A DNA stretch of 64,000 nucleotides from assembly GCA_002127295.1 (NCBI GenBank), contig NFUV01000002.1, positions 310,001 to 374,000 of the forward strand, in the 5' to 3' direction. Under the pieces are notes generated by a model. It searched no databases, was not told where the DNA came from, and saw nothing but the letters and a program-made list of their open reading frames with translations. The translations under genes and the position numbers were made by a program. Positions 41,613-58,780 of this stretch are shown here, piece after piece. Position 1 is the stretch's first letter. The number at the start of each line of letters is the position of its first letter. This DNA comes from Chitinophagaceae bacterium IBVUCB2 (GTDB lineage: Bacteria > Bacteroidota > Bacteroidia > Chitinophagales > Chitinophagaceae).

Positions 41613-41624
41613 TGATTTTCCTCA
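41613..41624. promoter_or_regulatory. TGA-N6-TCA site (hemerythrin/Hsp20 region, distal)
   Basis: TGATTTTCCTCA, the core shared by FNR, FixK and CRP boxes. It lies 18 bp from a second site. The centre is 52.5 bp from a possible hemerythrin -7 element on the minus strand, but that element almost abuts the start codon. Confidence 0.4.
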
Positions 41625-41636
41625 CTTCCCTTCAAC

Positions 41637-41648
41637 TGATATTAATCA
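41637..41648. promoter_or_regulatory. TGA-N6-TCA site upstream of Hsp20
   Basis: TGATATTAATCA, in context CTGATATTAATCAT, close to the FNR/FixK box. Its centre (41642.5) is 51.5 bp before TACTTTCG (41694-41701), a TAnnTTTG-like -7 element. This is an upstream (class I-like) activator position. Confidence 0.6.
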
Positions 41649-41719
41649 TAATAACTTCTGCGGCACATCATTCTAATAGCCTATACGCAGCTTTACTTTC
41701 GTAAAATAAAATTATCATT

Positions 41720-42151
41720 ATGTATCCAGGTTCAGCAACAAACAAGGAAATTAAAATAGGGACAACTGCAGCTCTCCCTTTTAAACAAGAGTCCGGCTCA
41801 ACTGCTATTAATTCGGAAGCAATTTCGGTCCCGGCTGTTAATATAACAGAAACGGCCACAGAATACCTTTTGGAAATTGCTTCACCGGGAATGCACCGGG
41901 AAGATTTTAATATTCAGATTGAACAATCAGTAATTACAATTTCTGCGAAATCTGAAAGAAGCACCGAAGACAGTAGTATAACTGACCGATGCGAATACAA
42001 TTACACTGAATGGGCCAGGGCATTTGCCTTGCCGGAAGATGCGGATGAGGTATTGGCTCATGCAAAATATAGTAATGGCGAATTAATAATTCGTATCCCC
42101 CGTGGTAATACAAGTGAAAACAAGGAAAAGACAACTGTATATGTCTATTAA
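41720..42151 (+). CDS. Hsp20/alpha-crystallin small heat-shock protein
   Basis: 143 aa chaperone. The alpha-crystallin domain (about 45-143) includes VNITETATEYLLEIASPGMH, IEQSVITISAKSE and FALPEDADEVLAHAKYSNGE, closing with the LIIRIPRGN (I-x-I/V) region. The N-terminal arm is short. It is preceded by a FixK/FNR-like site and a good -7 element. A small unknown gene follows 10 bases later. Confidence 0.93.
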   Translation: MYPGSATNKEIKIGTTAALPFKQESGSTAINSEAISVPAVNITETATEYLLEIASPGMHREDFNIQIEQSVITISAKSERSTEDSSITDRCEYNYTEWARAFALPEDADEVLAHAKYSNGELIIRIPRGNTSENKEKTTVYVY

Positions 42152-42161
42152 CATTAATTAT

Positions 42162-42581
42162 ATGCACTTACATATTTCGTCCAACCGTCTTATCAGCGAT
42201 ATTCAGAAGGAATTCAATAGTGCATTTCCTTTTCTGAAATTGGAATTTTTTAATAACCGGAGTTTTTCCCGTTCTAATTTCTCCGTGAGCCAACTAATTC
42301 CCGCCAATAAGAAAATAGGGGATAGTCAATTGGCAATATTGGATGCAGAAATGGAAATTTCTGAAGACATGAAAGTTATTGATCTTGAAAAAATGTTTAA
42401 GGATAAGTTCAAACTGGCAGTGCAGGTATTCCGCAAATCTGGTAATCTTTGGTTAGAAACAACCATGACAGACAATTGGACTTTGCTGCAGCAAAACAAC
42501 CATGGCAGAGAATTGTCAACCGAAAAAGGCAACAGCGATGCAGTAGATGACTATGATCTCAGTCGTGATGCTGACCATTAA
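42162..42581 (+). CDS. Conserved small protein of unknown function downstream of Hsp20
   Basis: 139 aa from the ATG at 42162; the frame opens at 42102 but that would overlap Hsp20. No signal or membrane segment. Visible: MHLHISSNRLISDIQKEFNS, a central DAEMEISEDMKVIDLEKMF and an acidic C-terminus with SDAVDDYDLSRDADH. I do not recognise the family. Its position suggests co-expression with Hsp20 under the same TGA-N6-TCA site. Confidence 0.65.
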   Translation: MHLHISSNRLISDIQKEFNSAFPFLKLEFFNNRSFSRSNFSVSQLIPANKKIGDSQLAILDAEMEISEDMKVIDLEKMFKDKFKLAVQVFRKSGNLWLETTMTDNWTLLQQNNHGRELSTEKGNSDAVDDYDLSRDADH

Positions 42582-42634
42582 ATCTTAAATTTTCTACAGT
42601 GAGCTCTTCCTCACTGAGGTTTGCAAATGAAATA

Positions 42635-42686: not shown

Positions 42687-43754
42687 TTAGTAAAGAAGAT
42701 TTTTTAATTTCTCCAGGTTAACGATGGAAATTTTTCCTTCTTTGATTTCTATTAATTTCTCCGCTTTAAAATCGCTGAGTGTACGGATCAATGATTCGGT
42801 AGCTGTACCAACATAATGTGCAAAATCTTCCCTTGAAATTTCAATGGGTTTATCAGGTCTCTCTGCATTAAATTTGGATTGAATATCAACCAATGCTTTT
42901 GCAACCCTCTTCCGAAGGGAACTATACGCAAGGCTTAGCAACCTATCCTCTTTTTCTTTTACATTTTGCGTAATGATCTGTATGAACTTGGCAGCTACAT
43001 CCATATTGCCATAAATCATTTGCATAAAATCTTCCCGTGGCAACTGTAGAATTTCTGCTTCCTCTAGTATTATGGCGGAATCGTCATAATTTTTATCTTC
43101 AATCAAAGCTGTGTATCCAATAAAATCTCCATCACTGAACAAGTCGGTAATATATTCTTTACCATCCTCATGCGACTTGACTGCTTTTACTTTTCCTTTC
43201 ACTAAATAAAACAAGACCCTTGGTCGCTTGCCCTCCTGGTAAAGCACTTGTTTTTTTGCATAATTGTCGGTGTTGTATTGTTCCGACAGCTGATTTACCA
43301 GGCCAGCACTTTTTACATCCTTAATAAATTGGTTGATACCCTGGTGTGAAGCAGCATAATTATTATTTAAAACCTCAGCTTTTTTTAACCTTACTTCTAT
43401 CGCATTCAACAACTCAATATCTTCAAAAGGCTTGGTTATATAATCATCTGCCCCCATTTCCATTCCTTTTCGGAAATCTGTTCGCTCCGTTTTTGCGGTT
43501 AGAAATACAAAGGGTATCTGTTCAGTATCCTTATTCTTTTTTAAAAGATGAAGTACTCCGTAGCCGTCCAGCTCAGGCATCATAATATCACAAACGATCA
43601 CATCTGGTTTTTCCCGTTGGGCTGCTTCCACACCTTTTTTTCCGTTCTCAGCAGTAAAAGTTTTATAGCCCGCTAATTCTAAGATCTCGGCTGTATTTTC
43701 CCGGATGTCCTGGTTGTCATCAATAACTAAAACTGATTTCATAATACTATCCAT
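42687..43754 (-). CDS. Response regulator fused to CRP/FNR-type DNA-binding module
   Basis: 355 aa with three parts. Receiver (5-125): acidic pair IDD (12-13), phospho-acceptor Asp56 in VCDIMMPELDG, Thr86, Lys108 in ITKPF. Then a cyclic-nucleotide-binding-type beta-roll (about 155-265; FYLVKGKVKAVK, FIGYTALIE) without the Cys set of FNR. Last, a CRP helix-turn-helix (about 300-345), with recognition helix TATESLIRTLSDFK; Glu320 and Arg324 are at the places of CRP Glu181/Arg185 and FNR Glu209/Arg213, which read TGA. It follows the kinase gene (overlap of 8 bases, or a 4-base gap from the ATG at 43742). Phosphorylation would replace a small-molecule signal. It is the natural candidate to bind the TGA-N6-TCA sites nearby. 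Confidence 0.92.
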   Translation of the reverse strand: MDSIMKSVLVIDDNQDIRENTAEILELAGYKTFTAENGKKGVEAAQREKPDVIVCDIMMPELDGYGVLHLLKKNKDTEQIPFVFLTAKTERTDFRKGMEMGADDYITKPFEDIELLNAIEVRLKKAEVLNNNYAASHQGINQFIKDVKSAGLVNQLSEQYNTDNYAKKQVLYQEGKRPRVLFYLVKGKVKAVKSHEDGKEYITDLFSDGDFIGYTALIEDKNYDDSAIILEEAEILQLPREDFMQMIYGNMDVAAKFIQIITQNVKEKEDRLLSLAYSSLRKRVAKALVDIQSKFNAERPDKPIEISREDFAHYVGTATESLIRTLSDFKAEKLIEIKEGKISIVNLEKLKNLLY

Positions 43755-45003
43755 TTATCGGAATACTAAAAGTAATGGTTGTTCCTTTATTTAACTCACT
43801 TTCCAATTTAACATCGCCGCCCAGCAAATCTATATATCTCTTTACAATGTGCAAGCCTAAACCAGTTCCCTGGATATTTACTGCATTGGCTGCCCTGAAA
43901 AAACTGGCAAACAAATGCTCCTGGTCTTCTTGTCCTATTCCAATTCCATTATCAATTACTGCCAGTACAATCCTGTTTTTGGATGTTTTAGCATCAATAG
44001 TAATGTTCTTTTCTTCCCCGGAAAACTTAACGGCATTACTGATCAGGTTGATCAATATATTCCTAAGTAGTTTTTTATCCGTTAAGGCGTGGCAATCTTC
44101 CTTACAGTTTACAATAATATGTTGCCCGGATTTTAACTGCGACTTCATTTCATCAACCGTTTCAGTTAAAATCTCTTTCACATTCACATCTTCCAGCTTT
44201 TTATCAACCCTTCCTTCATTTAATTTTCCCAACGAAAGGAAATCTTCCAGTATATCATTCAGGTTATTAACAGAATTTTTTATCCGCTGAATATGTTTAT
44301 CCCTTTTTTCCTGTTCTTCCGCCCCTGTATATTTTGATAAGAGACTGGCAGAAGAGAGCACAGTTGTAAGCGGTGTACGAAATTCATGCGATGCCATTGA
44401 TACAAACCTGCTTTTTATTTCGTTCAACTGTCTTTCTTTATCTAAAGCCTCGCTAAGTTCTTGTTGCGATTGTTCCAGTTTTTGCAGGGCCTCCCGCAAG
44501 ATCAAGGTACGTTCTTCTACTTTTACTTCGAGGTCTGCATTCAACTGCCGGATTTTATCCGTGATTTTTTCCAGCTCTGCTTTTTGTTGCAGCATACTCG
44601 TTTCAATTTCTTTACGCTGGGTAATATCTACTATAAAAGCAATTACAAATAATTCATCATCCCGCTTGTAATGGCTTAAACTAACTTCTACCGGCAATTC
44701 TGAATTATCTTTTTTTCTTCCATATAAATCCCGGCCATGCCCCATCGATCTATTAGAGGGCTTGTTATAAAAACCCTCTCTTAATTGGTGATGATGGGGA
44801 CGGAATTTAGCAGGTATTAATATCTCGATGGGATTGCCTATTAGTTCCTCACCCTTATAACCAAACATTCTCTCTACAGCAGGATTGGACATGACAATAT
44901 TTCCCTTACCGTTTGTAAGTATGATTCCTTCTGTTGCATTTTCAAACAAAGAGGTCATGTGTGCCTTATCCAGCATACGGGTGTTTTGTTTATTCAAATC
45001 CAA
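43747..45003 (-). CDS. Soluble PAS-domain histidine kinase, FixL-like
   Basis: 418 aa with no membrane segment. PAS domain (about 12-130), coiled coil (135-195), HisKA with phospho-acceptor His206 in SMASHEFRTPL, and HATPase (about 315-418; N box around INLISNAVKF, ATP-lid AVIDNGIGIG, GTGLGLHIVKRY). In an ungapped alignment to the heme PAS of FixL, His71 falls on the FixL heme ligand His200 and Arg91 on the distal Arg220. The same motif also occurs in non-heme PAS domains. It is upstream of, and overlapping, its receiver-CRP partner, so the two form one two-component system. O2, NO or redox is the likely signal. Confidence 0.9.
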   Translation of the reverse strand: MDLNKQNTRMLDKAHMTSLFENATEGIILTNGKGNIVMSNPAVERMFGYKGEELIGNPIEILIPAKFRPHHHQLREGFYNKPSNRSMGHGRDLYGRKKDNSELPVEVSLSHYKRDDELFVIAFIVDITQRKEIETSMLQQKAELEKITDKIRQLNADLEVKVEERTLILREALQKLEQSQQELSEALDKERQLNEIKSRFVSMASHEFRTPLTTVLSSASLLSKYTGAEEQEKRDKHIQRIKNSVNNLNDILEDFLSLGKLNEGRVDKKLEDVNVKEILTETVDEMKSQLKSGQHIIVNCKEDCHALTDKKLLRNILINLISNAVKFSGEEKNITIDAKTSKNRIVLAVIDNGIGIGQEDQEHLFASFFRAANAVNIQGTGLGLHIVKRYIDLLGGDVKLESELNKGTTITFSIPING

Positions 45004-45680: not shown

Positions 45681-45893
45681 CTATGCTTTTTTCTTAACCT
45701 GGCATGTATTAATTCCAAATAAAGAATACAAGGGGCAGGAGCCAACCAGGCTTGTAAGTAAAAAGATCCCGGCAATTCCTAATAAAACATATCCAAGAGT
45801 TCCGGTAATGCTGTTGGTAAAATAAAGAACTGCTATTACGATGGCAGCCAGTACTCTGATTATGCGATCGGTGTTTCCCATATTCTGTTTCAT
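45681..45893 (-). CDS. DUF2892 (YgaP-like) small membrane protein
   Basis: 70 aa with two membrane helices (about 8-26 and 28-50). MKQNMGNTDRIIRVLAAIV and the GSCPLYSLFGINTC end match the DUF2892 family. Function unknown; the family is often found beside rhodanese or redox genes. It has a perfect -7 element TAAGTTTG on the minus strand (45920 to 45913), 29.5 bp from a TGA-N6-TCA site. Confidence 0.9.
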   Translation of the reverse strand: MKQNMGNTDRIIRVLAAIVIAVLYFTNSITGTLGYVLLGIAGIFLLTSLVGSCPLYSLFGINTCQVKKKA

Positions 45894-45943
45894 GCTATTT
45901 GATTTTTATACTCAAACTTAAATTCTAAAAACAAGGATTTGGA

Positions 45944-45955
45944 TGATTATAGTCA
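45944..45955. promoter_or_regulatory. TGA-N6-TCA site upstream of the DUF2892 gene
   Basis: TGATTATAGTCA. Centre 45949.5 is 29.5 bp from the minus-strand -7 element TAAGTTTG (start 45920), which fits TAnnTTTG exactly. This close position would be class II-like. Confidence 0.6.
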
Positions 45956-46012
45956 GCCCGAAGAATGATTTATCGGATAATCCTTTTGAAATACAGGAAT
46001 CAAGGGGTTTAC

Positions 46013-46024
46013 TGATAAAAGTCA
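46013..46024. promoter_or_regulatory. TGA-N6-TCA site upstream of the universal stress protein gene
   Basis: TGATAAAAGTCA. Centre 46018.5 is 29.5 bp from TACATTTG (46048-46055), an exact TAnnTTTG -7 element. The spacing is the same as at the divergent DUF2892 promoter, where a separate copy is present. Confidence 0.62.
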
Positions 46025-46073
46025 GGAGGTGGGCAAGGGTACAGGTTTACATTTGGATGTAAAAATTAAAAAA

Positions 46074-46901
46074 ATGAAAACAATAATAGCTGCTACAGAT
46101 TTTTCTCCCGTATCACTCAGCGCTGTAAATTTTGCGGCTGATATGGCAGTGGCTATAAACGCCAATATTCTGTTATTCCATGCTTATAATATTCCCGTAA
46201 GCTATTCAGAAGTACCTATTGCTTTAATCTCTGTAGAAGAATTAAAACAAGAGGCCGAAAAGAAAATTCAAGACCTAAAGAAGGGGCTGCAGCACATATT
46301 ACCTCCCGGAATAAAAATAACAACAGTAGCGAGGTTAGGAAACACGGTGGATGAGATTGAAAATATATGCAACGAAACAAAACCTTTTGCAATAGTAATT
46401 GGATCTAAAGGAAGATCAAATATTGAAAATATAGTATTTGGAAGTGTTGCACTGACAGCTATTCGCCACCTGGAGTGGCCGGTGATTTGCGTACCCGGAG
46501 GAAAAGAATATGGAGGCGGAATTAAAAAAATAGGCTTTACCTGTGATTTCAGACAAATAGAAAAAACAACACCTGTTCAGAAAGTAAAGGAAATTGTAAG
46601 CGTTTTTAATGCGACACTATATATACTCAACGTAGATTACGATAACAAGCATTTCGATAGCGAAACACCTGCTCAAATGTATTTACTGAATGACTTATTT
46701 AATGATGTTAATCCCGAGTACCGTTTTATAAATAATCCAAATGTGGAAGTTGGCATTCATGAATTTGCAGAGACTAATAATTTGGACTTAATAATTGCAA
46801 TACCAAAAAAGCATAAATTATTAGATGGGATCTTTAATCCAAGCACTACGAAACAGTTGATTTTCCAGTCCCATATTCCGGTTATGTGTCTTCACCAATA
46901 A
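46074..46901 (+). CDS. Universal stress protein (two UspA domains)
   Basis: 275 aa from the ATG at 46074. The frame opens at 46029, but that would put the -7 element TACATTTG inside the gene. Two Usp domains in tandem: residues about 1-140 start MKTIIAATDFSPVSLSAVNFA and include VIGSKGRSNIENIVFGSVA (ATP-binding G-x-xG-x9-GS type), and 150-275 is a more diverged copy. It probably acts as a dormancy or stress-adaptation protein, as in other micro-oxic regulons. Confidence 0.92.
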   Translation: MKTIIAATDFSPVSLSAVNFAADMAVAINANILLFHAYNIPVSYSEVPIALISVEELKQEAEKKIQDLKKGLQHILPPGIKITTVARLGNTVDEIENICNETKPFAIVIGSKGRSNIENIVFGSVALTAIRHLEWPVICVPGGKEYGGGIKKIGFTCDFRQIEKTTPVQKVKEIVSVFNATLYILNVDYDNKHFDSETPAQMYLLNDLFNDVNPEYRFINNPNVEVGIHEFAETNNLDLIIAIPKKHKLLDGIFNPSTTKQLIFQSHIPVMCLHQ

Positions 46902-47723: not shown

Positions 47724-47735
47724 TGATTTACGTCA
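47724..47735. promoter_or_regulatory. TGA-N6-TCA site upstream of RIC copy 1
   Basis: TGATTTACGTCA. The minus-strand word TATAATTTG (47702 to 47694) is a -7-like element with one extra base. Its end lies 35.5 bp from the site centre, one base off the spacing seen for the stress protein. Confidence 0.5.
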
Positions 47736-47763: not shown

Positions 47764-48204
47764 TTAAATGACAGAGATACTTTTAATAAAATCAGGATTT
47801 TTTTTGTCCAGCAAATCGCCAATGGTTGTTTTAGAAAATTCGGCTAACATCCCATCTCTTATTTGCAGCATCTGGTAATGGAGGGGGCAAGGGTTTTTGC
47901 TATTACATTTTCGCAGGCTTAAAACACAGGTTTTAAACTGCTCCATTCCATCGGTAATTTTTACCAGGTGAAGCAATTTAGTTTGCAAAGTAGTCTCAGA
48001 TAATGAAAACCCACCATAAGGACCTTTTGTTGAGGTAAGAATGTCTTCCTGTACCATTTTCTTCATGATCTTAGCTAAGAAATGACGTGGTACAGCAAGC
48101 TTGTCAGCCATTTGCTCTATTTTGACCTTTTTTCCTTTAGGTTCCAATAAGGCCACATACAAAACTCCTCTAAGTGCATAACCAAATGACTTTGAAAGAA
48201 ACAT
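47764..48204 (-). CDS. Rrf2-family transcriptional regulator, three-Cys type
   Basis: 146 aa winged-helix regulator: MFLSKSFGYALRGVLYVALL, QMADKLAVPRHFLAKIMKKM (recognition region) and STKGPYGGFSLSE (wing). A Cys-x6-Cys-x5-Cys set in CVLSLRKCNSKNPC is placed like the iron-sulfur ligands of NsrR/IscR. It could sense NO or iron-sulfur status. It diverges from the nos operon across 202 bases that hold a 10-bp-arm palindrome, a candidate operator. Confidence 0.9.
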   Translation of the reverse strand: MFLSKSFGYALRGVLYVALLEPKGKKVKIEQMADKLAVPRHFLAKIMKKMVQEDILTSTKGPYGGFSLSETTLQTKLLHLVKITDGMEQFKTCVLSLRKCNSKNPCPLHYQMLQIRDGMLAEFSKTTIGDLLDKKNPDFIKSISVI

Positions 48205-48255: not shown

Positions 48256-48267
48256 TGATTAATATCA
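48256..48267. promoter_or_regulatory. TGA-N6-TCA site in the rrf2/nos intergenic region
   Basis: TGATTAATATCA, in context CTGATTAATATCAC. Centre 48261.5 is 28.5 bp from the minus-strand -7-like TATCTTCG (48233 to 48226) of rrf2 and 94.5 bp from the nos -7 element. It could act on either gene; the rrf2 distance is closer to the others. Confidence 0.55.
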
Positions 48268-48325
48268 CAAAAAGGGTTGACAAGCCTCATTCAGGGTGGA
48301 AATTTGCGCAGATACATTTGTGTTA

Positions 48326-48353: not shown

Positions 48354-48355
48354 AG

Positions 48356-48406: not shown

Positions 48407-48892
48407 ATGAAACGTATTAGCTTGGTTTTCTCTATCACAATCATCATCGTATTATTTTCCACTTCCTTGTTAATTAGTTCTTGTGGCGGTAACGAAGAAA
48501 AAAAGGATAACTCACCCGTAATAGAAACTCAGCCCAAAGAGCAGGCTGAAAGTCACGGAACAGAAGTAAAGCCGGGTGATGTTACATTAACTACGCCGCT
48601 CAATGCTGAGTGGGTAAATGCAGGAAAAGGTATTTATGAATTAAAGTGCCAATCTTGCCACAAACTTACAGATGAGCGACTAGTAGGCCCGGGTTGGAAA
48701 GGTGTAACACAAAAAAGAGAGCCACACTGGATTATGAATATGATCACCAATGTAGACATGATGCTGGAGACAGATCCGGAAGCACAAAAATTATTAGAGC
48801 AATGTTTGGTTCGCATGCCAAACCAGAATATATCCAAAGATGAATCCCGCCAGATAATTGAGTTTATGCGTTCTAACGATGGGGTTAAATAA
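48407..48892 (+). CDS. Cytochrome c lipoprotein of the nos operon
   Basis: 161 aa with lipobox ISSC (Cys26) and a class I cytochrome c domain: haem site CQSCH (Cys81, Cys84, His85) and a likely axial Met in VRMPNQN. It is the first gene of the nos operon, 39 bases before nosZ. It would carry electrons to NosZ on the periplasmic side of a membrane, in keeping with clade II nos clusters that include c-type cytochromes. Confidence 0.9.
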   Translation: MKRISLVFSITIIIVLFSTSLLISSCGGNEEKKDNSPVIETQPKEQAESHGTEVKPGDVTLTTPLNAEWVNAGKGIYELKCQSCHKLTDERLVGPGWKGVTQKREPHWIMNMITNVDMMLETDPEAQKLLEQCLVRMPNQNISKDESRQIIEFMRSNDGVK

Positions 48893-48931
48893 AAAATGGC
48901 AATTATTCTCTTCATTTAATAAATAAAAAAT

Positions 48932-50935
48932 ATGAAACGCTATTACTTCAAAACCCATGTGGTTTTGATAATGACCTCTGCTTGCCTTTTATTTCTACAA
49001 AGTTGTAAACCAAAGACAGCACAATCCGCTGCCGGTGGTGATGCTTCCAAATCGTATGTTGCCCCTGGTAAATACGATGAATTCTACAATATCGTATCTG
49101 GTGGTTTTAATGGCCAGGTAGCTGTATATGGTATACCATCGGGCCGTTTATTTCGCATCATTCCCGTATTCTCACAGGCTGCAGAAAGTGGTTATGGTTT
49201 TAGCGAAGAAACCAAGCCAATGTTAAACACTTCTCATGGTTTTGTGCCTTGGGATGATCAGCATCACATTGCATTATCGCAGACCAAAGGCGAACATGAT
49301 GGTCGCTGGGCATTTGCAAATGGTAACAACACACCAAGACTGGCGAGAATAGACCTTACCACTTTCCGTACTTCAGAAATTTTAGAAATACCCAATAGTG
49401 CCGGTAACCATGCTTCACCTTTCATTACCGAGAACTCCGAATATATTGTAGCAGCTACCCGCTTTAGTGTTCCATTGGATGACCAGAACGGTGATGTTCC
49501 TATTAATACATACAAACAAAATTTTAAAGGCTCAATAAGTTTTGTTTCTGTAAATCCAACATCCGGTGAAATGAACATTGCGTTCCAGATACGTACTCCC
49601 GGTGTAAACTTTGATCTTTCCCGTGCGGGCAAAGGAAAATCACATGGCTGGTTCTTCTTTAGTTGTTATAATTCAGAGAAAGCAAATACATTACTAGAAG
49701 TAAATGCTTCGCAGAAAGACAAAGACTTTGTAATGGCTGTAAACTGGAAAAAAGCAGAAGAATATCTAAAAGCCGGTAAAGCAAAAAAACAATCTGTAAA
49801 ATATGCACACAATGTGTATGATGAAAATACACATACAGCTACTTCCACTATTAAAACAGAGGTAATGGTACTTGATCCCGCTGATTGCCCTGAAATGTTA
49901 TACCTGATACCATGTCCTAAATCACCACACGGAACAGATGTGGATCCTACCGGGGAATATATTGTTGCCTCTGGTAAATTAGCGGCCAGTATTCCTGTTT
50001 TCTCTTTTACAAAATTGCAAAAAGCGATTGCGGATAAAGCATTTGATGGCGAATATGATGGTATTCCTGTAATTAAATATGAAGCTGCTTTACATGGTGA
50101 AGTTGCGAAGCCAGGACTTGGACCTTTGCATACAGAATTTGATGGAAAAGGAAATGCTTACACTTCCATGTTCGTTTCTTCTGAAGTAGTGAAATGGAGT
50201 ATCAGTGATCTGAAAGTTTTAGACAGGGTGCCTACTTATTATTCCATCGGACACTTATCAATACCTGGTGGACCCACAGCGAAACCACATGGCAAATATT
50301 TGATCGCTTATAATAAAATTACCAAAGACCGTTATTTACCAACCGGACCTGAATTAACACAGAGTGCACAGCTTTATGATATTAGTGGCGAAAAAATGAA
50401 ATTAATACTTGACTTTCCTACTACTGGTGAGCCGCACTATGCAGAAGCAATACCTGCCAGCCTGCTCATGAATAAGCAACGGAAGATTTATAAAATTGAA
50501 GAGAACACACATCCGTATGTTGCAAAAGGTGAAGGACAATCAAGAGTGGAACGCAAAGGAAACCAGGTGCATGTATGGATGACTGCTATACGTTCGCACC
50601 TTACTCCTGATAATATAGAAGGAATAAAAGTAGGGGATGAAGTTTATTTCCATGTTACCAACCTGGAACAGGATTGGGATGTTCCGCACGGCTTTGCGTT
50701 GAAAGGTGCTAACACAGCAGAAATATTAATAATGCCCGGCGAAACTCAAACTTTAAAATGGGTGGCTGATAAACCAGGTATTGTGCCTTTCTATTGCACA
50801 GACTTTTGTTCAGCATTACACCAGGAGATGCAAGGTTACTTAAGAGTTTCACCTGCAGGATCGAATGTTCCACTTCTATTCAGTACTGGTACCAATAAGC
50901 CAGCTGTAACAGGTACAGATACTACAAAAAAATAA
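48932..50935 (+). CDS. nosZ: Nitrous-oxide reductase, clade II
   Basis: 667 aa enzyme that reduces N2O to N2. A Sec-type signal with a lipobox-like LQSC near residue 25 replaces the Tat signal of clade I enzymes. The CuA domain at the end has CTDFCSALHQEM (Cys622, Cys626, His630, Met633). Propeller segments include EHDGRWAFANGNNTPRLAR, KSPHGTDVDPTGEYIV and GPLHTEFDGKGNAYTS, with the conserved histidines of the CuZ cluster. It is followed by a strong stem-loop, then accessory genes. Confidence 0.97.
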   Translation: MKRYYFKTHVVLIMTSACLLFLQSCKPKTAQSAAGGDASKSYVAPGKYDEFYNIVSGGFNGQVAVYGIPSGRLFRIIPVFSQAAESGYGFSEETKPMLNTSHGFVPWDDQHHIALSQTKGEHDGRWAFANGNNTPRLARIDLTTFRTSEILEIPNSAGNHASPFITENSEYIVAATRFSVPLDDQNGDVPINTYKQNFKGSISFVSVNPTSGEMNIAFQIRTPGVNFDLSRAGKGKSHGWFFFSCYNSEKANTLLEVNASQKDKDFVMAVNWKKAEEYLKAGKAKKQSVKYAHNVYDENTHTATSTIKTEVMVLDPADCPEMLYLIPCPKSPHGTDVDPTGEYIVASGKLAASIPVFSFTKLQKAIADKAFDGEYDGIPVIKYEAALHGEVAKPGLGPLHTEFDGKGNAYTSMFVSSEVVKWSISDLKVLDRVPTYYSIGHLSIPGGPTAKPHGKYLIAYNKITKDRYLPTGPELTQSAQLYDISGEKMKLILDFPTTGEPHYAEAIPASLLMNKQRKIYKIEENTHPYVAKGEGQSRVERKGNQVHVWMTAIRSHLTPDNIEGIKVGDEVYFHVTNLEQDWDVPHGFALKGANTAEILIMPGETQTLKWVADKPGIVPFYCTDFCSALHQEMQGYLRVSPAGSNVPLLFSTGTNKPAVTGTDTTKK

Positions 50936-50940
50936 TTATC

Positions 50941-50974
50941 AAAGTGTGCAGGCTTACTAAGTCTGCACACTTTT
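50941..50974 (+). terminator. Terminator/attenuator after nosZ
   Basis: AAAGTGTGCAG pairs perfectly with CTGCACACTTT around an 11-base loop, followed by TTAAAA. The downstream nos genes are co-oriented, so it may lower their expression relative to nosZ. Confidence 0.85.
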
Positions 50975-50993
50975 AAAAATAAATATATTTTTT

Positions 50994-51560
50994 ATGAAAA
51001 AGATACTTGGTTCTATACTATTACTATCATCCATTTTCTTTTTTTCATGCAATGATGCTGCAAAGGAATCCGGCACAACAACCACCGAAACAGAAACGAT
51101 CAATCCGGGAGGCCAATCCTCTGTAAAGGATGATGAGTCCGCAAAAGATGTTGTAAAAATTGCAGTTGGTTCTGCGGATCACAGCACCCTGGTAGCTGCT
51201 TTAAAACAGGCCGACCTTGTTAACTCCCTGTCAAACGCAGGTCCTTTTACAGTATTTGCCCCAACGAATGCAGCTTTTGATAAAGTACCAAAAGAAACAT
51301 TAGACAACCTGATGAAAGATGAAAATAAAGCCCAGTTGCAGGACATCCTACAATATCATGTGTATGTAGGAAGTTTGAAAACAGAAATGATGGAAGACGG
51401 CCAGACCTTCAACCAGGTAAATGGAGGAAATATAACCATCACAAAAAAAGATGGTAAAGTAATGGTCAATAATTCCGCAACTGTTATTGCTTCAATACCT
51501 GCTTCAAACGGTATTATCCATGTTATTGATGGGGTGTTGTTGCCGCCAGCAAATAAATAA
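50994..51560 (+). CDS. Fasciclin-domain lipoprotein
   Basis: 188 aa; lipobox FFSC (Cys19), an acidic Thr/Glu linker, then one FAS1 domain (about 55-186; DHSTLVAALKQADLVNSLSN, GPFTVFAPTNAAFDKVP, IIHVIDGVLLPP). FAS1 domains mediate adhesion or protein contacts. Its place between nosZ and nosL suggests a scaffold for the Nos proteins, but this is inference. Confidence 0.9.
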   Translation: MKKILGSILLLSSIFFFSCNDAAKESGTTTTETETINPGGQSSVKDDESAKDVVKIAVGSADHSTLVAALKQADLVNSLSNAGPFTVFAPTNAAFDKVPKETLDNLMKDENKAQLQDILQYHVYVGSLKTEMMEDGQTFNQVNGGNITITKKDGKVMVNNSATVIASIPASNGIIHVIDGVLLPPANK

Positions 51561-51609
51561 AAGTTTTCTTTAGTTGTACCTGGATTCTCTCAACTGAATA
51601 TGATCTCTT

Positions 51610-52650
51610 ATGAAAAGAAAACTAAGTAATACAGCAAGGATAATTATTTTTTTAGGCTCCCTGGCAATGTGCATTATGTTTTTTGTACCCGCCTGGTCCA
51701 TTTACCTGATAGCACCCCAGTATCCTGAGGGACTTTCAATGCAGATTTGGTTATATAAAATAACAGGCCAGGTCGAGATCATCAATGGCCTTAATCATTA
51801 TATAGGAATGAAACATATCGAGGCCAGCATGTTTCCTGAATTTAATTTCCTTGTTTATGTTTTAGGATTTTTTGTGCTTTTCGGATTGACGATTGCTATA
51901 ACCGGCAGCCGTAGACTTTTATTTATTTATCTGATACTTTCTGTAATGGGTGGCGTCGCCGCTATGGTAGATTTTTACTTGTGGGGTTATGATTATGGAC
52001 ATAATCTTGATCCAACTGCTGCGATCCAGGTTCCCGGTTTATCTTATCAACCGCCATTGATCGGGCATAAAAAATTATTGAATTTCGATTCCTACTCTTA
52101 TCCTGATACAGGTGGATGGGTGATAGTAGTGGTGACTTTCATCTTTAGCATAATATGGTTTCTTGAATGGCGGAAATATAAAAAACAAAAAAGCATGACA
52201 TCGTTTAAAAAAATGACCACTATTGTATCAGTGCTGCTGGTAGGTCTTTTTCTCGTAGGTTGTAAACCTAAACCAGAAAAAATAAATGTTGGCAAGGATA
52301 ACTGTGCGGAATGCAAGATGACCATTATGGATACCAAATTTGGTGCTGAGATCGTAACAAAAAAAGGCAAAGTATATAAGTTTGATGACTCCCATTGCGT
52401 AGCAGCTTTTTTCAATCGCAGGGGTGTAGAACTTAGCAGCATTTCAAAAACACTATTTGTTGATTACAACAGTGGTGATTTTATTGAAGTGAAGGATGCT
52501 GAATTTGTAGTAAGTAGTCAATTAAAAAGCCCTATGGGTGGTAATGCTGCTGCCTTTAAAAATAAAACTGCGGCGCAACAAAAATCGAATGAGATTGAAG
52601 GTAGCCGACTTACCAATTGGGCCACACTTTATAATATCCTTATCAAATGA
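51610..52650 (+). CDS. nosL: Four-helix membrane protein fused to NosL copper chaperone
   Basis: 346 aa in one frame. Residues 1-190 hold four membrane helices (about 10-35, 79-98, 102-125, 168-187) and a soluble loop. From Met196 a second part looks like a complete NosL lipoprotein: basic SFKKM, a fifth helix and a lipobox FLVGC (Cys218), then NCAECKMTIMDTK (Cys232, Cys235, Met237), the Cu(I) motif. Topology is consistent: the fourth helix ends inside, so NosL projects into the periplasm. An internal start at 52195 could also make free NosL. The stop overlaps nosD (ATGA). Confidence 0.88.
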   Translation: MKRKLSNTARIIIFLGSLAMCIMFFVPAWSIYLIAPQYPEGLSMQIWLYKITGQVEIINGLNHYIGMKHIEASMFPEFNFLVYVLGFFVLFGLTIAITGSRRLLFIYLILSVMGGVAAMVDFYLWGYDYGHNLDPTAAIQVPGLSYQPPLIGHKKLLNFDSYSYPDTGGWVIVVVTFIFSIIWFLEWRKYKKQKSMTSFKKMTTIVSVLLVGLFLVGCKPKPEKINVGKDNCAECKMTIMDTKFGAEIVTKKGKVYKFDDSHCVAAFFNRRGVELSSISKTLFVDYNSGDFIEVKDAEFVVSSQLKSPMGGNAAAFKNKTAAQQKSNEIEGSRLTNWATLYNILIK

Positions 52651-53879
52651 AGTGCTTGATTTCAGTACTGTTATTTTTTGCAGCCACAACCTGTTTTGCC
52701 AACACTATTATTGTGGGAAAAGGGAAGGCTATAAGCAGTTTAAAACTGGCGATCAAAACTTCAAAAAACGGCGATACAATTCTTTTAAATGCGGGAACAT
52801 ATAAAGAAGGGACTATTATTATCGACAAATCAATTCATCTTATCGGTGTAAATACACCCATATTAGATGGCGAAAACAAAAACGAAATACTGACTGTAAC
52901 AGGGAAAAATATTTTTATCAGTGGTATTCATTTTGCCAATGCCGGCTATTCTTCTATGAACGATTATGCTGGTCTTAAGATCATTGACGCAACCAATATT
53001 AAAGTTGAAAAAAATATATTCAGTAATACGTCATTTGCCATACATATTTCCAATTCTACGCATTGCACTATCAGCAATAATTCCATAAAAGGCACCAGCA
53101 AATCGGAGCATTCATCCGGCAATGGTATACACCTGTGGAAATGTAGTCAGATGCTGATTGAGAACAATACTATACAAGGACATAGAGATGGCATTTACTT
53201 CGAATTTGTGAGCCATTCAACTATCAGAAAGAACTGGAGTGAGAAAAATATCCGGTATGGATTGCATTTTATGTTTTCAAGTGACAACTCTTATCTCAGT
53301 AATACATTTAGAAATAATGGAGCAGGGGTAGCTGTAATGTATTCCAAAAAAGTGATCATGCTCCGTAATCATTTTGACCAAAATTGGGGAGCTTCTGCAT
53401 ATGGCATTCTTTTAAAAGACATTACCGACAGCCGTATTCAGTATAATACTTTTTTTAAGAACACTATTGCAATTCACATGGAGGGAAGTAGTAGGATTCA
53501 GGTTGAAAAGAACATATTCAAAGAGAACGGATGGGGAATTAAAGTACAGTCCAGTTGTGATGATAATAACTTTCGCTTTAATAACTTTTATGGCAATTCT
53601 TTTGACCTGGCTACGAATGGTACTATGATGCTAAATTATTTTTCAAATAACTATTGGGATAAGTATGAAGGATATGATATTAATAAAGACGGAACCGGCG
53701 ATATACCTTTTCATCCCGTAAGCATGTACTCCATGATAGTAGAACAAAACCCTCATGCTTTATTATTGATGAGAAGCTTTACTATTTCCTTATTGGATAA
53801 AGCAGAAAAAGCAATACCCGGTCTTACGCCTGAAAACCTGGTGGATAATTACCCCAAGATGAAACCCAATAAATTATGA
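52647..53879 (+). CDS. nosD: NosD, periplasmic parallel beta-helix maturation protein
   Basis: 410 aa; signal peptide ends near residue 18 (CFANT). The rest is a right-handed beta-helix of repeated short strands (CTISNNSIKG, MLIENNTIQGH, YLSNTFRNNG, IQYNTFFKN), the CASH-domain pattern of NosD. It works with NosF and NosY to provide sulfur or otherwise mature the CuZ centre of NosZ. ATGA overlaps link it to the genes on both sides. Confidence 0.95.
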   Translation: MKCLISVLLFFAATTCFANTIIVGKGKAISSLKLAIKTSKNGDTILLNAGTYKEGTIIIDKSIHLIGVNTPILDGENKNEILTVTGKNIFISGIHFANAGYSSMNDYAGLKIIDATNIKVEKNIFSNTSFAIHISNSTHCTISNNSIKGTSKSEHSSGNGIHLWKCSQMLIENNTIQGHRDGIYFEFVSHSTIRKNWSEKNIRYGLHFMFSSDNSYLSNTFRNNGAGVAVMYSKKVIMLRNHFDQNWGASAYGILLKDITDSRIQYNTFFKNTIAIHMEGSSRIQVEKNIFKENGWGIKVQSSCDDNNFRFNNFYGNSFDLATNGTMMLNYFSNNYWDKYEGYDINKDGTGDIPFHPVSMYSMIVEQNPHALLLMRSFTISLLDKAEKAIPGLTPENLVDNYPKMKPNKL

Positions 53880-54643
53880 TTCGAATTGAAAATATCAGCA
53901 AGCGGTTTAAAAAATTACAGGTACTCGATAATATTTCTGTAGGATTTGAAAAAGGGCAGGTGATATCGCTGATCGGACCCAATGGCTCCGGTAAAACAAC
54001 CCTGATAAAATCCATCCTGGGTATGGTGAAGCCCAACAGCGGAAAAATATTCGTGGGAGAAAAAATTATTGACACGGATCCTGCTTATCGCAAAATAATT
54101 GGCTATATGCCCCAGATAGGCCGCTACCCTGATAATATGAAAATAGGGCAGTTATTCAGTATGCTAAAGCAAATACGCAAAACAGAAAATAACCAAACGG
54201 ATGAAGAACTGATTAAAAAGTTCGAACTCGAAAAAATATTCGATAAGCCAATGCGTACCCTCAGCGGCGGTACCCGTCAAAAAGTAAGTGCAGCTATAGC
54301 TTTTCTATTCGACCCAGCCATTCTTATACTGGACGAACCTACCGCAGGCCTTGATCCGCTGGCTTCAGAAATATTAAAACAAAAAATAATTGCAGAAAAG
54401 AAAAAAGATAAACTGATTTTAATTACCTCTCATATTCTCAGTGATCTCGATGAAATAACTACCCATGTAATGTATATGCAGGAAGGTAAAATGCAATTCT
54501 TTAAGGACATTGGCACCCTGCAGGAAGAAACAGGAGAGTTGCGGTTAGGTAAAGCTATTGCAAGGATAATGAAAGGCGATTTAATAAATACTAACTGGAT
54601 CGATAAAATGTTTGAGCCAAAAAATGATGAAAAAATTTATTAA
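53876..54643 (+). CDS. nosF: NosF, ABC transporter ATPase
   Basis: 255 aa ATPase: Walker A GPNGSGKTTL, Q-loop region GYMPQIGRYP, signature LSGGTRQKVS, Walker B LILDEPTAGLDP and switch His in LITSHILSDL. Its start overlaps the nosD stop and nosY follows 9 bases later. It would power the NosFY transporter for NosZ maturation. Confidence 0.95.
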   Translation: MIRIENISKRFKKLQVLDNISVGFEKGQVISLIGPNGSGKTTLIKSILGMVKPNSGKIFVGEKIIDTDPAYRKIIGYMPQIGRYPDNMKIGQLFSMLKQIRKTENNQTDEELIKKFELEKIFDKPMRTLSGGTRQKVSAAIAFLFDPAILILDEPTAGLDPLASEILKQKIIAEKKKDKLILITSHILSDLDEITTHVMYMQEGKMQFFKDIGTLQEETGELRLGKAIARIMKGDLINTNWIDKMFEPKNDEKIY

Positions 54644-54652
54644 ACTGTTTTT

Positions 54653-55420
54653 ATGTTAAAGCTATCCCGTTATGTGCTGTATGATATTTTGAGAAGCAAG
54701 ATTGTGATTGCCTATACCATTTTCCTGTTTGCCGTTTCACTCAGTATGTTCCAGATGGAAGAAAATAGCAGTAAAGCGATGCTGAGTCTTTTAAATATTG
54801 TGCTGATTGTTTTACCATTGGTAAGCCTGGTTTTTACGACCATTCATTATTATAATTCTTATGAATTTATAGAGCTCATGTCCTCCCAACCCATGAGCCG
54901 TACAAGAATATTATTAAGCGAATATGCTGGAGTGGCCATTTCATTGCTCAGTGCTTTTCTGATAGGAGTTGGCATCCCGGTCTTACTATTAGCTCCCAAT
55001 GATATCGGGTTTGCTTTACTATTTTCCGGTGTTTGCTTAACACTTGTATTTACATCCATTGCTTTTTTTGCTGCCGTAATAGCCAGAGATAAGGCGAGAG
55101 GTATTGGTTTTGCTTTGTTGCTCTGGTTTTATTTTGCCCTTATTTATGACAGTCTTGTACTGCTGATACTTTTCTCTTTCAGTGATTATCCATTGGAAAA
55201 AATAACGCTGTTGCTTTCTGCCCTTAATCCTATTGATCTGGGCCGCATATTCATTATGCTTAAAATGGATGTTAGTGCATTAATGGGATACACTGGTGCT
55301 TTGTACAAAGATTTTTTCGGCAGCGGTACAGGTATTCTTTTCACCACAGGCATTATGCTGTTGTGGATCATTGTGCCACTATGGTTGGCAGTAAGAAAAT
55401 TTCGAAAAAAAGATCTATAA
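54653..55420 (+). CDS. nosY: NosY, ABC transporter permease
   Basis: 255 aa with about six membrane helices. MLKLSRYVLYDILRSKIVIAY and YEFIELMSSQPMSRTRIL match the NosY family. It partners NosF. The next gene, a RIC protein, follows 31 bases later in the same direction. Confidence 0.93.
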   Translation: MLKLSRYVLYDILRSKIVIAYTIFLFAVSLSMFQMEENSSKAMLSLLNIVLIVLPLVSLVFTTIHYYNSYEFIELMSSQPMSRTRILLSEYAGVAISLLSAFLIGVGIPVLLLAPNDIGFALLFSGVCLTLVFTSIAFFAAVIARDKARGIGFALLLWFYFALIYDSLVLLILFSFSDYPLEKITLLLSALNPIDLGRIFIMLKMDVSALMGYTGALYKDFFGSGTGILFTTGIMLLWIIVPLWLAVRKFRKKDL

Positions 55421-56249: not shown

Positions 56250-56259
56250 CTGCTCTACC

Positions 56260-56271
56260 TGACCAAAATCA
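56260..56271. promoter_or_regulatory. TGA-N6-TCA site upstream of ccoI
   Basis: TGACCAAAATCA, in the palindromic context CTGACCAAAATCAG. Centre 56265.5 is 51.5 bp before TAATTTAG (56317-56324), a -7-like element with one mismatch. The spacing equals that at Hsp20 and ccoS. Confidence 0.6.
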
Positions 56272-56345
56272 GTTATGCATTTGAACTTACTCACTTCCTG
56301 TAAAAGGCATGCCTTGTAATTTAGCCTCCTATCTTGGAAATAAGT

Positions 56346-58742
56346 ATGACCGGGTCAAATTTTACAGACAATAAAGTACAATGCTACCATTGTGGTGAAG
56401 CATGCAGCAATAGTAAAATCAATGTCCGGGAAAAGAATTTTTGTTGCGAAGGCTGCAAGATGGTGTACCAGATTTTGAACCAAAGTGATCTCTGCGATTA
56501 CTATGATATGAATAAAAATCCGGGCATAAGTCAACGTATTAAAGTGCGAAAGGACAAATTTGCATTTTTAGAGGACGAGAATATCCAGAACAAACTCACC
56601 AGTTTCAGGAGCGATAAACAAGTGCATGTAACACTTTACCTGCCTCAAATGCACTGTAGTTCCTGTCTTTATTTGTTAGAGAACCTGCATCGAATTGATG
56701 AAGGCATTGTTTCCAGTAAAGTAAATTTCACAAGAAAAGAAGTAGAAATTGTTTTCCTGGTTACTAAAACAACATTGCGAAAAGTAGTCGAAACACTTAC
56801 CAGTATTGGATACGAACCATATATCAGCCTGAATGATCTGAAAGAAAAAAGACCCGCCGTTAATAAAACAATGGTTTTGCAATTGGGAATTGCGGGGTTT
56901 TGTTTTGGGAATATCATGTTGATGAGCTTTCCTGAATACCTGGGTATTGATACCACCGAAGTTGGATTGCGGAGCATTTTTCGCTGGCTCAATTTTGGAC
57001 TAGCTATTCCTGTTTTACTTTACTCTGCGCTTCCTTTCTATACTTCTTCAATCAAGAGTTTGCAGCATAGATTCCTTAATATTGATGCGCCGATTGCATT
57101 GGCTATTCTTATTACATTTATCCGTAGTGCTTACGAAGTGATAAGCGGTACCGGTGGTGGCTATTTTGATTCTATGACTGGCATAGTTTTTTTTATGCTT
57201 GCCGGTAGAATTCTGCAGGATAAAACATTTCGTCAGCTTTCTTTTGAGAGAGATTATACTTCCTACTTTCCCATTGCTGTTTCGGTAACTAAAGATGATA
57301 AAGAAACTCCTACTGCTTTGCCCGATATTAAACCGGGAGATACTTTGTTAATACATAATGAAGAATTAATTCCTGCAGATGGTATACTCACAAAAGGAAA
57401 AGCCTTTGTTGATTACAGTTTTGTAACCGGCGAATCCTTGCCTGTTGTAAAAGAAGTAGGTGAATTAGTATATGCAGGCGGCAAACAAACAGAGGGCAAT
57501 ATTGAAATACTGGTGGTAAAGGAAGTAGCACAAAGCTACCTTACCAAATTGTGGAACAGGGATGAATTCAAAAAGCAGGACGCAATAAAAAAAGTTTCAT
57601 TTGTTCACTTACTTAGTCGCTATTTTACCTATATCGTTTTTGCTATTGCTCTCGGCACAGCCATTTATTGGCAGATAAATGAGCCTGCCCGATTATGGCC
57701 TGCAGTAACTGCTATCTTCATCATTGCCTGCCCCTGCGCATTGCTATTATCCAATACATTTACAAATGGAAATATTTTGCAGATACTTGGCCGCAATCAC
57801 TTTTATCTTCGGAGTGCACAAACTATAGAAGAAGTGGCCAAAGTAACTCATATCGTTTTTGACAAAACCGGAACACTTACTTCAACCCAACATCAACATA
57901 TTACCTACGAAGGCACCAGGCTTACTACTTATCAAATACAACAGGTGGCTGCATTAGCCGCCTGTTCTTCTCATCCCTTAAGCAAAGCTCTTGCAAAATA
58001 TCTTGCAAAGGGAAAGCAACCAGAAGTGGCGGGGTTTAAAGAAACAATAGGAGAGGGCATTGAAGGATTTGTACAAAATGATTTAATGAAACTGGGCTCA
58101 TATCATTTTGTAACCGGGTTAGCAAGCCGTCAAACCGGCACGGCAATATTTGTAAGTATTGAAAATAGATTACAAGGTTTTTTTCACTTCAGCAACCATT
58201 ACCGGGGTGAAATTCCGGGCTTACTGAACAATTTAAAAATCAATTACCGGCTTTCTGTTTTATCTGGGGATAATGATACAGAAAGAAAAAATCTGCAGCA
58301 TTTGCTGGGAAAAAAAGCTACCCTGCGATTTCATCAAAAACCAGAAGATAAGCTTCGCTATATAAAACACCTGCAAGACCAGGGAGAAAAAGTGATGATG
58401 ATCGGAGATGGACTGAACGATGCCGGTGCATTGAAACAAAGTGATATTGGTGTTGCAGTGGCCGAACAAACAAATAATTTTACTCCTTCCAGCGATGGTA
58501 TCATTGAAGCAAAACAACTGGCACTGCTTCCGAAATTTATCCGGCTATGCCATGCTAACCGGCAAATTGTGATCGCCAGCTTTGTTTTATCTATTGTGTA
58601 TAATATAATCGGGTTATTCTTTGCCGTGCAAGGAAATTTATCCCCCCTTATTGCTGCTATCCTCATGCCCGCCAGTTCCCTTAGTATTTTATTGATCACA
58701 TTTGGCAGCAGCAGTTGGGTTGCCCGTCGTATGAAACTGTAG
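56346..58742 (+). CDS. ccoI: CcoI-type copper-translocating P-type ATPase
   Basis: 798 aa from the ATG at 56346 (an in-frame TTG at 56334 is less likely). N-terminal metal-binding part with YHCGEAC and FCCEGCKMVYQIL, then an HMA domain with MHCSSCLYLLENL. The membrane motif is CPC in FIIACPCALLLSN, the phosphorylation site DKTGTLT, and the hinge GDGLNDAGAL. This layout is that of CcoI/FixI, which exports copper needed to assemble cbb3 oxidase (and possibly NosZ). It has its own TGA-N6-TCA site. Confidence 0.94.
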   Translation: MTGSNFTDNKVQCYHCGEACSNSKINVREKNFCCEGCKMVYQILNQSDLCDYYDMNKNPGISQRIKVRKDKFAFLEDENIQNKLTSFRSDKQVHVTLYLPQMHCSSCLYLLENLHRIDEGIVSSKVNFTRKEVEIVFLVTKTTLRKVVETLTSIGYEPYISLNDLKEKRPAVNKTMVLQLGIAGFCFGNIMLMSFPEYLGIDTTEVGLRSIFRWLNFGLAIPVLLYSALPFYTSSIKSLQHRFLNIDAPIALAILITFIRSAYEVISGTGGGYFDSMTGIVFFMLAGRILQDKTFRQLSFERDYTSYFPIAVSVTKDDKETPTALPDIKPGDTLLIHNEELIPADGILTKGKAFVDYSFVTGESLPVVKEVGELVYAGGKQTEGNIEILVVKEVAQSYLTKLWNRDEFKKQDAIKKVSFVHLLSRYFTYIVFAIALGTAIYWQINEPARLWPAVTAIFIIACPCALLLSNTFTNGNILQILGRNHFYLRSAQTIEEVAKVTHIVFDKTGTLTSTQHQHITYEGTRLTTYQIQQVAALAACSSHPLSKALAKYLAKGKQPEVAGFKETIGEGIEGFVQNDLMKLGSYHFVTGLASRQTGTAIFVSIENRLQGFFHFSNHYRGEIPGLLNNLKINYRLSVLSGDNDTERKNLQHLLGKKATLRFHQKPEDKLRYIKHLQDQGEKVMMIGDGLNDAGALKQSDIGVAVAEQTNNFTPSSDGIIEAKQLALLPKFIRLCHANRQIVIASFVLSIVYNIIGLFFAVQGNLSPLIAAILMPASSLSILLITFGSSSWVARRMKL

Positions 58743-58750
58743 CCTTGTCT

Positions 58751-58774
58751 TTATCATCTTTTTTGAGATGATAA
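58751..58774 (+). terminator. Hairpin after ccoI, overlapping a TGA-N6-TCA site
   Basis: TTATCATCT and AGATGATAA are perfect 9-bp arms around a 6-base loop. It lacks a downstream T-run, so it is a weak terminator at best. Its right arm is shared with the TGA-N6-TCA site at 58769. Confidence 0.45.
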
Positions 58775-58780
58775 TAATCA
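58769..58780. promoter_or_regulatory. TGA-N6-TCA site upstream of ccoS-ccoNOQPG
   Basis: TGATAATAATCA, in context ATGATAATAATCAG. Centre 58774.5 is 51.5 bp before TACTTTTA (58826-58833), a -7-like element with one mismatch. The spacing is the same as at ccoI and Hsp20. Confidence 0.6.

Follow-up and report, generated by a model that had tools for sequence, protein, structure and literature searches.

A tandem TGA-N6-TCA promoter code in Chitinophagaceae and its probable reading by a receiver-CRP fusion protein at cbb3 oxidase, N2O reduction and stress genes

The window analysed here is a 64-kb stretch (64,000 nucleotides) of Chitinophagaceae bacterium IBVUCB2 (contig NFUV01000002.1, forward strand, positions 310,001 to 374,000); all coordinates are those of this whole stretch, and the genome that carries it is called G000. 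It holds genes for a cbb3 oxidase, for N2O reduction and for stress proteins (Table 1), with palindromes of the form TGA-N6-TCA (boxes) in the gaps between them. It also encodes a PAS histidine kinase and REC-CRP, a protein that joins a receiver to a cyclic-nucleotide (cNMP)-binding fold and a Crp-type helix-turn-helix (HTH); judging from the short same-strand gaps, the ygaP-like, flavodoxin, kinase and REC-CRP genes probably form one operon. An earlier note on this DNA had proposed a FixK/FNR-type regulon made up of the cbb3 oxidase, N2O reduction and stress genes, and this proposal is strongly supported by the phylogenetic footprinting and by the co-occurrence of sites and regulators described below.

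All eight palindromes listed earlier were found where they had been placed, and two further ones (48278 and 56282) each lie exactly 22 bp past a listed one. The six gaps concerned (856 bp) contain ten TGA-N6-TCA palindromes, compared with a mean of 0.203 and a maximum of 3 in 2000 shuffles; the enrichment claimed earlier (eight sites in about 900 bp, 0.2-0.3 expected) was thus real and even stronger, its count of sites having been two too low. Only the N6 spacer is enriched, as all other spacers from N0 to N12 gave 5 palindromes altogether in the same six gaps. Across the 64 kb, the bare core occurs 21 times, with 21.75 expected from shuffles; a core at chance level is unspecific, and we ruled it out as a genome-wide marker.

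The recurring unit is a tandem, in which two palindromes with a pitch of 22 bp have their centres at 55 and 33 bp from that of a -7 box (TAnnTTTG); written as a 65-bp composite pattern, it consists of box, 10, box, 23 and TAnnTTTG. Eight of the ten sites lie at exactly 33.0 or 55.0 bp from the centre of a -7 box with at most one mismatch. Those at 33.0 bp are 45944 (ygaP), 46013 (usp) and 48278 (nos), with no mismatch in the -7 box, and 56282 (ccoI), with one; those at 55.0 bp are 48256 (nos), with none, and 41637 (hsp20), 56260 (ccoI) and 58769 (ccoS), with one each. The distances of 29.5 and 51.5 bp reported before are correct and correspond to these values, having been counted from the middle of the palindrome to where the -7 box starts, and the statement that rrf2 is one base shorter agrees with the 32 and 54 bp that we measured. 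The hemerythrin site (41613) is one base off, at 56 bp. For RIC1, previously described as about one base off, the palindrome at 47724 proved to be a misfit, with -7-like boxes at 53 and 57 bp on the RIC1 strand, each with one mismatch. The view that the two distances represent alternative class I and class II sites also had to be given up, since the promoters hold both positions in tandem, one copy being often degenerate: ccoS and hsp20 have a second box 22 bp away if one mismatch is allowed, and ygaP and usp retain half of one. A division into two promoter classes was equally rejected in relatives, where both sites are perfect in 36 of 42 ccoI-side and 43 of 64 ccoN-side promoters with matrix scores (see below) above 15.

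The earlier note conceded that its spacing was partly chosen by eye and, indeed, most sites in the window have several other -7-like boxes (at most one mismatch) within 140 bp. The spacing was therefore tested in relatives, whose promoters the note had suggested comparing. The ccoI regions came from 90 genomes (G000 included) of the 96 with a near-full-length ccoI row, and on either side of ccoI 89 regions were usable, 88 from relatives and one from G000; a full-length REC-CRP was present for 73 regions on each side and absent for 16. N6 palindromes numbered 230, with 91 upstream and 111 downstream of ccoI in genomes with REC-CRP and 4 and 24 in those without, compared with 8 to 49 in all for each of the other spacers from N2 to N10 (N3 being the highest, at 49). 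Box pairs 22 bp apart numbered 85 (with REC-CRP, 38 on each side of ccoI; without it, 9, all downstream), while no other box-pair spacing among the six listed per set exceeded 2 in any set, and -7 boxes peaked at 55 and 33 bp. The composite form was derived from this window, but the values of 22, 33 and 55 bp thus recur in the ccoI regions of relatives independently of it. Downstream of ccoI, 13 of the 16 genomes without full-length REC-CRP have a palindrome, and their 9 pairs lie here.

The composite, unlike its core, is nearly free of background. With at most one mismatch it was found at 687 places in 120 of 147 Chitinophagaceae genomes, where the reversed control matched once, and this makes it specific. 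In a sample of the phylum it occurred in 54 of 395 genomes (control, 1). Other orders of the same class have it in 29 of the 79 genomes covered, and outside the class it was found in 7 genomes; two of the latter, G409 and G442 of family f47, carry 10 and 11 composites, which may point to horizontal transfer or to an older origin of the code. The same pattern occurs 28, 25 and 22 times in G035, G045 and G141, compared with 5 times in G000, which suggests, by sequence, much larger regulons than that of G000. A small genome of the same genus (G257, 2.0 Mb) has no composite match. In G000 the tandem was found at 26 places with at most one mismatch, of which four had none; the reversed control gave 10. 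The scan proposed earlier, for a box and TAnnTTTG at a fixed distance, gave 31 exact places over 31 gaps (mean 1) and bore out the 33-bp spacing (gap 23, 5 of 31) but not the 55-bp one (gap 45, 2; gaps 33 and 47, 3 each), so that one box alone reveals only the 33-bp spacing genome-wide. Another candidate marker, TTGATNNNNATCAA, was dropped: it has 13 places in G000 against 6 for its reversed control, none of them inside the window.

Promoters were scored with a matrix trained on 104 ccoI and ccoN promoters of relatives within 3 mismatches of the composite, G000 being excluded; scores on these relatives' promoters are partly circular, as they are the training set. The best score of the window belongs to ccoS (40.7), followed by ccoI (35.8), nos (32.0), hsp20 (29.5), hemerythrin (15.7) and ygaP (13.5), then by a reverse reading at 46024 (8.2), usp (4.9) and the reverse nos/rrf2 reading (3.8), the next place having -1.8. 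Maxima in 20 random windows ranged from -5.6 to 9.1; ccoS, ccoI, nos and hsp20 are far above random, and hemerythrin and ygaP moderately so. In the relatives, a composite scoring above 15 precedes ccoS/ccoN in 64 of 88 genomes, a count that is partly circular. No conserved -33 element was seen in the matrix; the absence of an element at this position is expected of activator-dependent promoters.

The matrix gave 237 matches above 12 in 77 of 80 named REC-CRP loci. In 30 of these 80 loci, 37 cases of opposite composites on one common pair were found, at an offset of +33 (next offset, 5); as both box positions are fixed, one pair can serve divergent promoters. The nos/rrf2 gap is such a case, its pair preceding both nos and the divergent rrf2, although the rrf2-side -7 box is one base short in G000. 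At various loci of the named relatives, composites precede ccoI, ccoNO, cytochrome c-nosZ, rrf2, RIC, usp, hsp20 and hemerythrin genes. Beyond the window, the stretches of G000 that we examined have composites at two Usp genes, a PLD-domain gene, a YceI-like gene and a cytochrome c gene, as well as at genes for a heavy-metal-binding-domain protein, a lipoprotein-like protein and a 127-amino-acid protein without Pfam match; in stretches L038, L039 and L040 no composite scored above 6. A composite scoring 32 lies just beyond the window, at about 65151 (L288 5151), before a gene for a 222-amino-acid lipoprotein-like protein without Pfam match. A second kinase/REC-CRP pair was found at G000:C2:434585-438457 (L037 8585-12456), with composites facing both ways in the next gap, one of which precedes a gene for a heavy-metal-binding-domain protein.

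Table 1. Promoter elements and genes of the window.
Feature	Position	Strand	Details
ccoS-ccoNO-ccoP composite promoter	58769..58833	+	distal 58769-58780; proximal 58791-58802 TGATACCTGTTA (1 mismatch)
ccoS promoter -7 box	58826-58833	+	TACTTTTA (1 mismatch)
ccoI composite promoter	56260..56324	+	distal 56260-56271; proximal 56282-56293
ccoI promoter -7 box	56317-56324	+	TAATTTAG (1 mismatch)
Cytochrome c-nosZ operon composite promoter	48256..48320	+	distal 48256-48267; proximal 48278-48289; -7 box TACATTTG 48313-48320
hsp20 composite promoter	41637..41701	+	distal 41637-41648; proximal 41659-41670 TGCGGCACATCA (1 mismatch)
hsp20 promoter -7 box	within 41637..41701	+	TACTTTCG (1 mismatch)
Hemerythrin composite promoter	41559..41624	-	distal 41624-41613; proximal 41602-41591 (1 mismatch); -7 box one base off
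Promoter ahead of ygaP-like, flavodoxin, histidine kinase and REC-CRP genes	45913..45977	-	proximal 45955-45944, perfect; distal 45977-45966, one half intact; -7 box TAAGTTTG
usp promoter	45991..46055	+	proximal 46013-46024, perfect; distal 45991-46002, one half intact; -7 box TACATTTG
Single palindrome upstream of RIC1	47724..47735	.	does not fit the composite
Hemerythrin, proposed target	41060..41554	-	
Hsp20, proposed target	41720..42151	+	
REC-CRP, proposed activator	42687..43754	-	355 amino acids; receiver, cNMP-binding fold, Crp-type HTH
PAS histidine kinase, proposed partner	43747..45003	-	FixL/DosP-like PAS, conserved His71
YgaP-like transmembrane protein, proposed target	45681..45893	-	DUF2892 in the earlier note
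Universal stress protein, proposed target	46074..46901	+	scanned from 46062, ATG at 46074
Rrf2-type regulator, possible target of shared site pair	47764..48204	-	
Cytochrome c, Sec-dependent-type nosZ, fasciclin, nosL, nosD and ABC genes, proposed target operon	48407..55420	+	
ccoI-type heavy-metal P-type ATPase, proposed target	56334..58742	+	
ccoS, ccoN-ccoO fusion and ccoP, proposed targets	58853..62523	+	

Two other genes of the region may be mentioned. A 159-amino-acid protein without Pfam match (42102-42581, plus strand) adjoins hsp20, and many of the named loci have a relative of it near REC-CRP, often with a composite promoter close by. In the nos cluster, a fasciclin-domain gene (50994-51560) has nosZ on one side and nosL on the other.

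REC-CRP belongs to the CRP/FNR superfamily, with matches to PF00027 (2.9e-19) and PF13545 (1.8e-14). Like FixJ, it has a receiver (PF00072, 4e-30) with a phosphoacceptor Asp, D56, which is present in 73 of 73 REC-CRPs, as is K108, with T86 in 71 (S in the other two), while its output part is a Crp-type HTH and not the GerE/LuxR-type HTH that forms the output of FixJ. Among the best 60 of 144 solved chains matched, none aligned over both halves of the protein. The solved relatives of the kinase PAS domain are DosP or FixL in 13 of 15 cases, DosP holding the two top ranks. Its His71, the presumed proximal haem histidine, is present in 57 of 57 kinases and is aligned with a His of DosP and FixL that is the haem ligand there. 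In 53 of 74 loci the gene immediately upstream of REC-CRP is that of the kinase. A kinase orthologue (at least 215 bits) was found in 25 of 25 genomes with REC-CRP, chosen from the 107 for their close REC-CRPs, and in 0 of 28 without it (all 17 FNR-only genomes and 11 of the 23 with neither regulator; best there, 99 bits).

A full-length REC-CRP (by best E-value) occurs in 107 of the 147 genomes, and an FNR-like protein (at least 230 bits) in 36. Composites are present in 85 of 88 genomes with REC-CRP only, 19 of 19 with both, 13 of 17 with the FNR-like protein only and 3 of 23 with neither; taken together, 117 of 124 genomes with either regulator have them, as opposed to 3 of 23 (Fisher test, kinship ignored, 5.7e-16). 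Seven genera include one genome with a regulator and one without, and in six of them sites are missing only where the regulator is missing; in the seventh (g12) they are missing in both genomes. Among the 62 REC-only genomes that have ccoI, 30 carry REC-CRP no more than 3 kb away from it; the FNR-like gene is that close in 22 of 32. In genomes with both regulators, ccoI has the FNR-like gene nearby in 11 of 17 and REC-CRP in 1. Both proteins share the recognition-helix consensus GTATES-x-IR, in which E and R stand as in the recognition helix of E. coli FNR.

The FNR-like proteins have the first N-terminal cysteine of a CxxC in 13 of 15 rows (the other two start late) and a central cysteine in 15 of 15; a third N-terminal cysteine is less constant (two columns, with Cys in 10 and 12 of 15 rows). 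They are candidates for an Fe-S sensor type, although the conserved cysteines do not fix the full ligand set. At the same columns, REC-CRP has the first N-terminal cysteine in 0 of 73 rows and the central one in 3 of 73, so that it is not an FNR of the Fe-S type; the cysteine found in 73 of 73 REC-CRPs at the second N-terminal column is that of the receiver's VCDIMM and was read as an alignment artefact. With 89.5 bits against NF008365, whose cut-off is 228, the FNR-like protein of G087 stays below the threshold. In a tree of the CRP halves, the REC-CRP rows cluster together (support 86/85) and so do the FNR-like rows (87/57), neither group being starred; next to the FNR group stand both CRPx rows and one of the outgroup rows, and no direction of replacement was read from this tree.

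The sequences themselves establish the promoter architecture, that it is conserved and that it occurs together with the regulators, and the palindromes are very probably real regulatory switches. The TAnnTTTG box of Flavobacterium psychrophilum spans -12 to -5 (PMC9723704). If this position also applies to G000, where the transcription start may differ, the proximal box, 33 bp from the -7 box, would be centred at about -41.5 and the distal one at about -63.5. We consider it quite likely that, at these rigid two-box promoters, a FixJ/FixK-like fusion protein acts as the activator under the control of a FixL-like kinase, DNA binding, haem and the O2 response being predicted features. At low O2, the haem-PAS kinase would phosphorylate the receiver of REC-CRP, which would then occupy both boxes as two CRP/FNR-superfamily dimers side by side, 22 bp apart, at sigma-A promoters, one dimer taking the proximal, class II position and the other lying behind it. 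RNA polymerase would thereby be recruited to the cbb3 oxidase, N2O reductase and stress genes, and probably to REC-CRP's own operon. This would amount to the FixL, FixJ, FixK chain with the FixJ receiver and the DNA-reading half of FixK in one protein. These boxes are probably also read, in relatives without REC-CRP, by the FNR-like protein with its N-terminal cysteines and identical helix motif. The role of O2 as the signal and of REC-CRP as the binder is what we infer from all this, and the haem-PAS-like kinase now adds evidence to it. The wider proposition, that a one-protein short form of FixLJ-FixK and an Fe-S FNR use one code, on which sensors swap or coexist while two adjacent dimers stay obligatory, seems to us somewhat better founded than its opposite.

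Several observations weigh against this picture. By matrix score usp (4.9) and rrf2 (3.8) are not significant, random maxima reaching 9.1; the RIC1 site stands outside the composite form, and rrf2 and hemerythrin are one base off. Seven of the 124 regulator-bearing genomes lack composites, four of them among the 17 FNR-only ones, and three of the 23 genomes with neither regulator carry them, though two of these are only 72% and 60% complete and the third (G078) has a 228-amino-acid relative of REC-CRP at a contig end. The thresholds of the co-occurrence were chosen after the lists had been seen, and its Fisher value ignores phylogeny. Upstream of ccoI, only 3 of 16 regions without full-length REC-CRP have a palindrome; compared with the 13 of 16 downstream, the code in these genomes is thus seen at ccoS/ccoN and not directly upstream of ccoI. 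Keeping the tandem there, they led us to reject REC-CRP as the only reader and a tandem that requires the receiver. They also lend some weight to the idea that the main reader of the sites is a different CRP/FNR protein, such as a second REC-CRP or another CRP-like one, the neighbouring REC-CRP having a narrower role. G000 has five HTH_Crp_2 matches, four of them above the cut-off, and its second REC-CRP, 49% identical, has the same helix motif and composite promoters beside it; either REC-CRP may therefore be the binder at a given site, which is a further point against the first one. We nevertheless hold another main reader to be unlikely: the first REC-CRP lies inside the cluster and adjoins ccoI in many relatives, 20 of 23 genomes without REC-CRP and FNR-like protein also lack the composite, and the remaining two clear CRP-like proteins in G000 show only about 20% identity, with no composite above 6 in the 14 kb around either.

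The signal might also be nitric oxide, redox state or some ligand other than O2, the PAS domain being perhaps haem-free, and RIC, Rrf2, hemerythrin and nos a mark of nitrosative stress. The cluster does contain RIC twice, Rrf2 and nos. Moreover, R91, which corresponds in the alignment to the distal Arg of FixL and DosP, is found in only 40 of 57 kinases, which again speaks against an O2 sensor, and an R-x-x-H motif can occur in haem-free PAS domains. This is doubtful in our view, if a little less so than a different main reader, since the code stands before ccoS/ccoN in most relatives (the partly circular 64 of 88), the solved PAS domains nearest to that of the kinase sense O2 through haem, cysteines of the FNR-like proteins stand at positions resembling those of FNR, and cbb3 of F. 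psychrophilum is induced by O2 limitation (PMC9723704). Chance, that is AT-rich intergenic DNA combined with -7 boxes picked by eye, could draw on the bare core being at chance level across the window, but it hardly deserves consideration given the shuffles, the spacer controls, the relatives and a reversed pattern that matched once against 687 times.

The control of gene expression by O2 in Bacteroidota, including their N2O-reducing members, seems little studied, and a promoter pattern nearly free of background makes regulons predictable from sequence across the family. An exchange of Fe-S-type and phosphorelay sensors over one DNA code would be a case of regulatory rewiring that is directly testable, and the recurrent tandem raises the question of how the RNA polymerase of Bacteroidota is activated. 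If the proposed picture is true, two obligatory adjacent dimers are a form of activation distinct from the single-site class I and class II of E. coli, and the code, with dimers at -41.5 and -63.5 and often a symmetric pair common to divergent genes, stayed fixed despite a change of sensor.

In Alphaproteobacteria, a replacement of FnrN by FixLJ-FixK, with FixK acting on existing FnrN sites, has been proposed for the Caulobacterales (PMC4999443), and Rhizobium leguminosarum uses hFixL-FxkR-FixK and FnrN jointly (PMC7888657). By analogy, the Chitinophagaceae case looks like the same sensor exchange made separately, with receiver and CRP fused; such a system was not described among the literature matches listed, whose coverage leaves out most subscription journals. 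The likeness to FixL-FixJ-FixK and hFixL-FxkR-FixKf (PMC4999443, PMC7888657) extends to a haem-PAS-like kinase, a receiver, a CRP-type regulator without Fe-S cysteines, cco targets (with nos in some), the box core (the rhizobial FixK-type consensus TTGANCNNGATCAANG has a TGA-N6-TCA core, PMC4999443) and substitution for a protein of the Fe-S FNR type. In contrast to the rhizobial cascades, the receiver and the CRP-type DNA-binding part are fused here, so that no transcriptional step from FixJ to fixK exists; the phylum and the promoter type are others, and two boxes are fixed at a predicted -63.5 and -41.5. By its sequence and its proposed sites REC-CRP would resemble FixK, as it lacks the Fe-S cysteines and a TTGA-N6-TCAA-type box stands upstream of its presumed cco targets, but it has a receiver in addition. 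With FNR and FnrN, the system shares the box core, the predicted -41.5 position and the proposed cbb3 targets, and the FNR-like proteins of relatives share the N-terminal CxxC and the central cysteine, whereas REC-CRP has a receiver instead of those cysteines. In E. coli CRP, class II sites lie at -41.5 and class I sites at -61.5 (PMC5957442); the proximal box would correspond to class II, but the distal one would lie at about -63.5, and here both sites together are the usual form.

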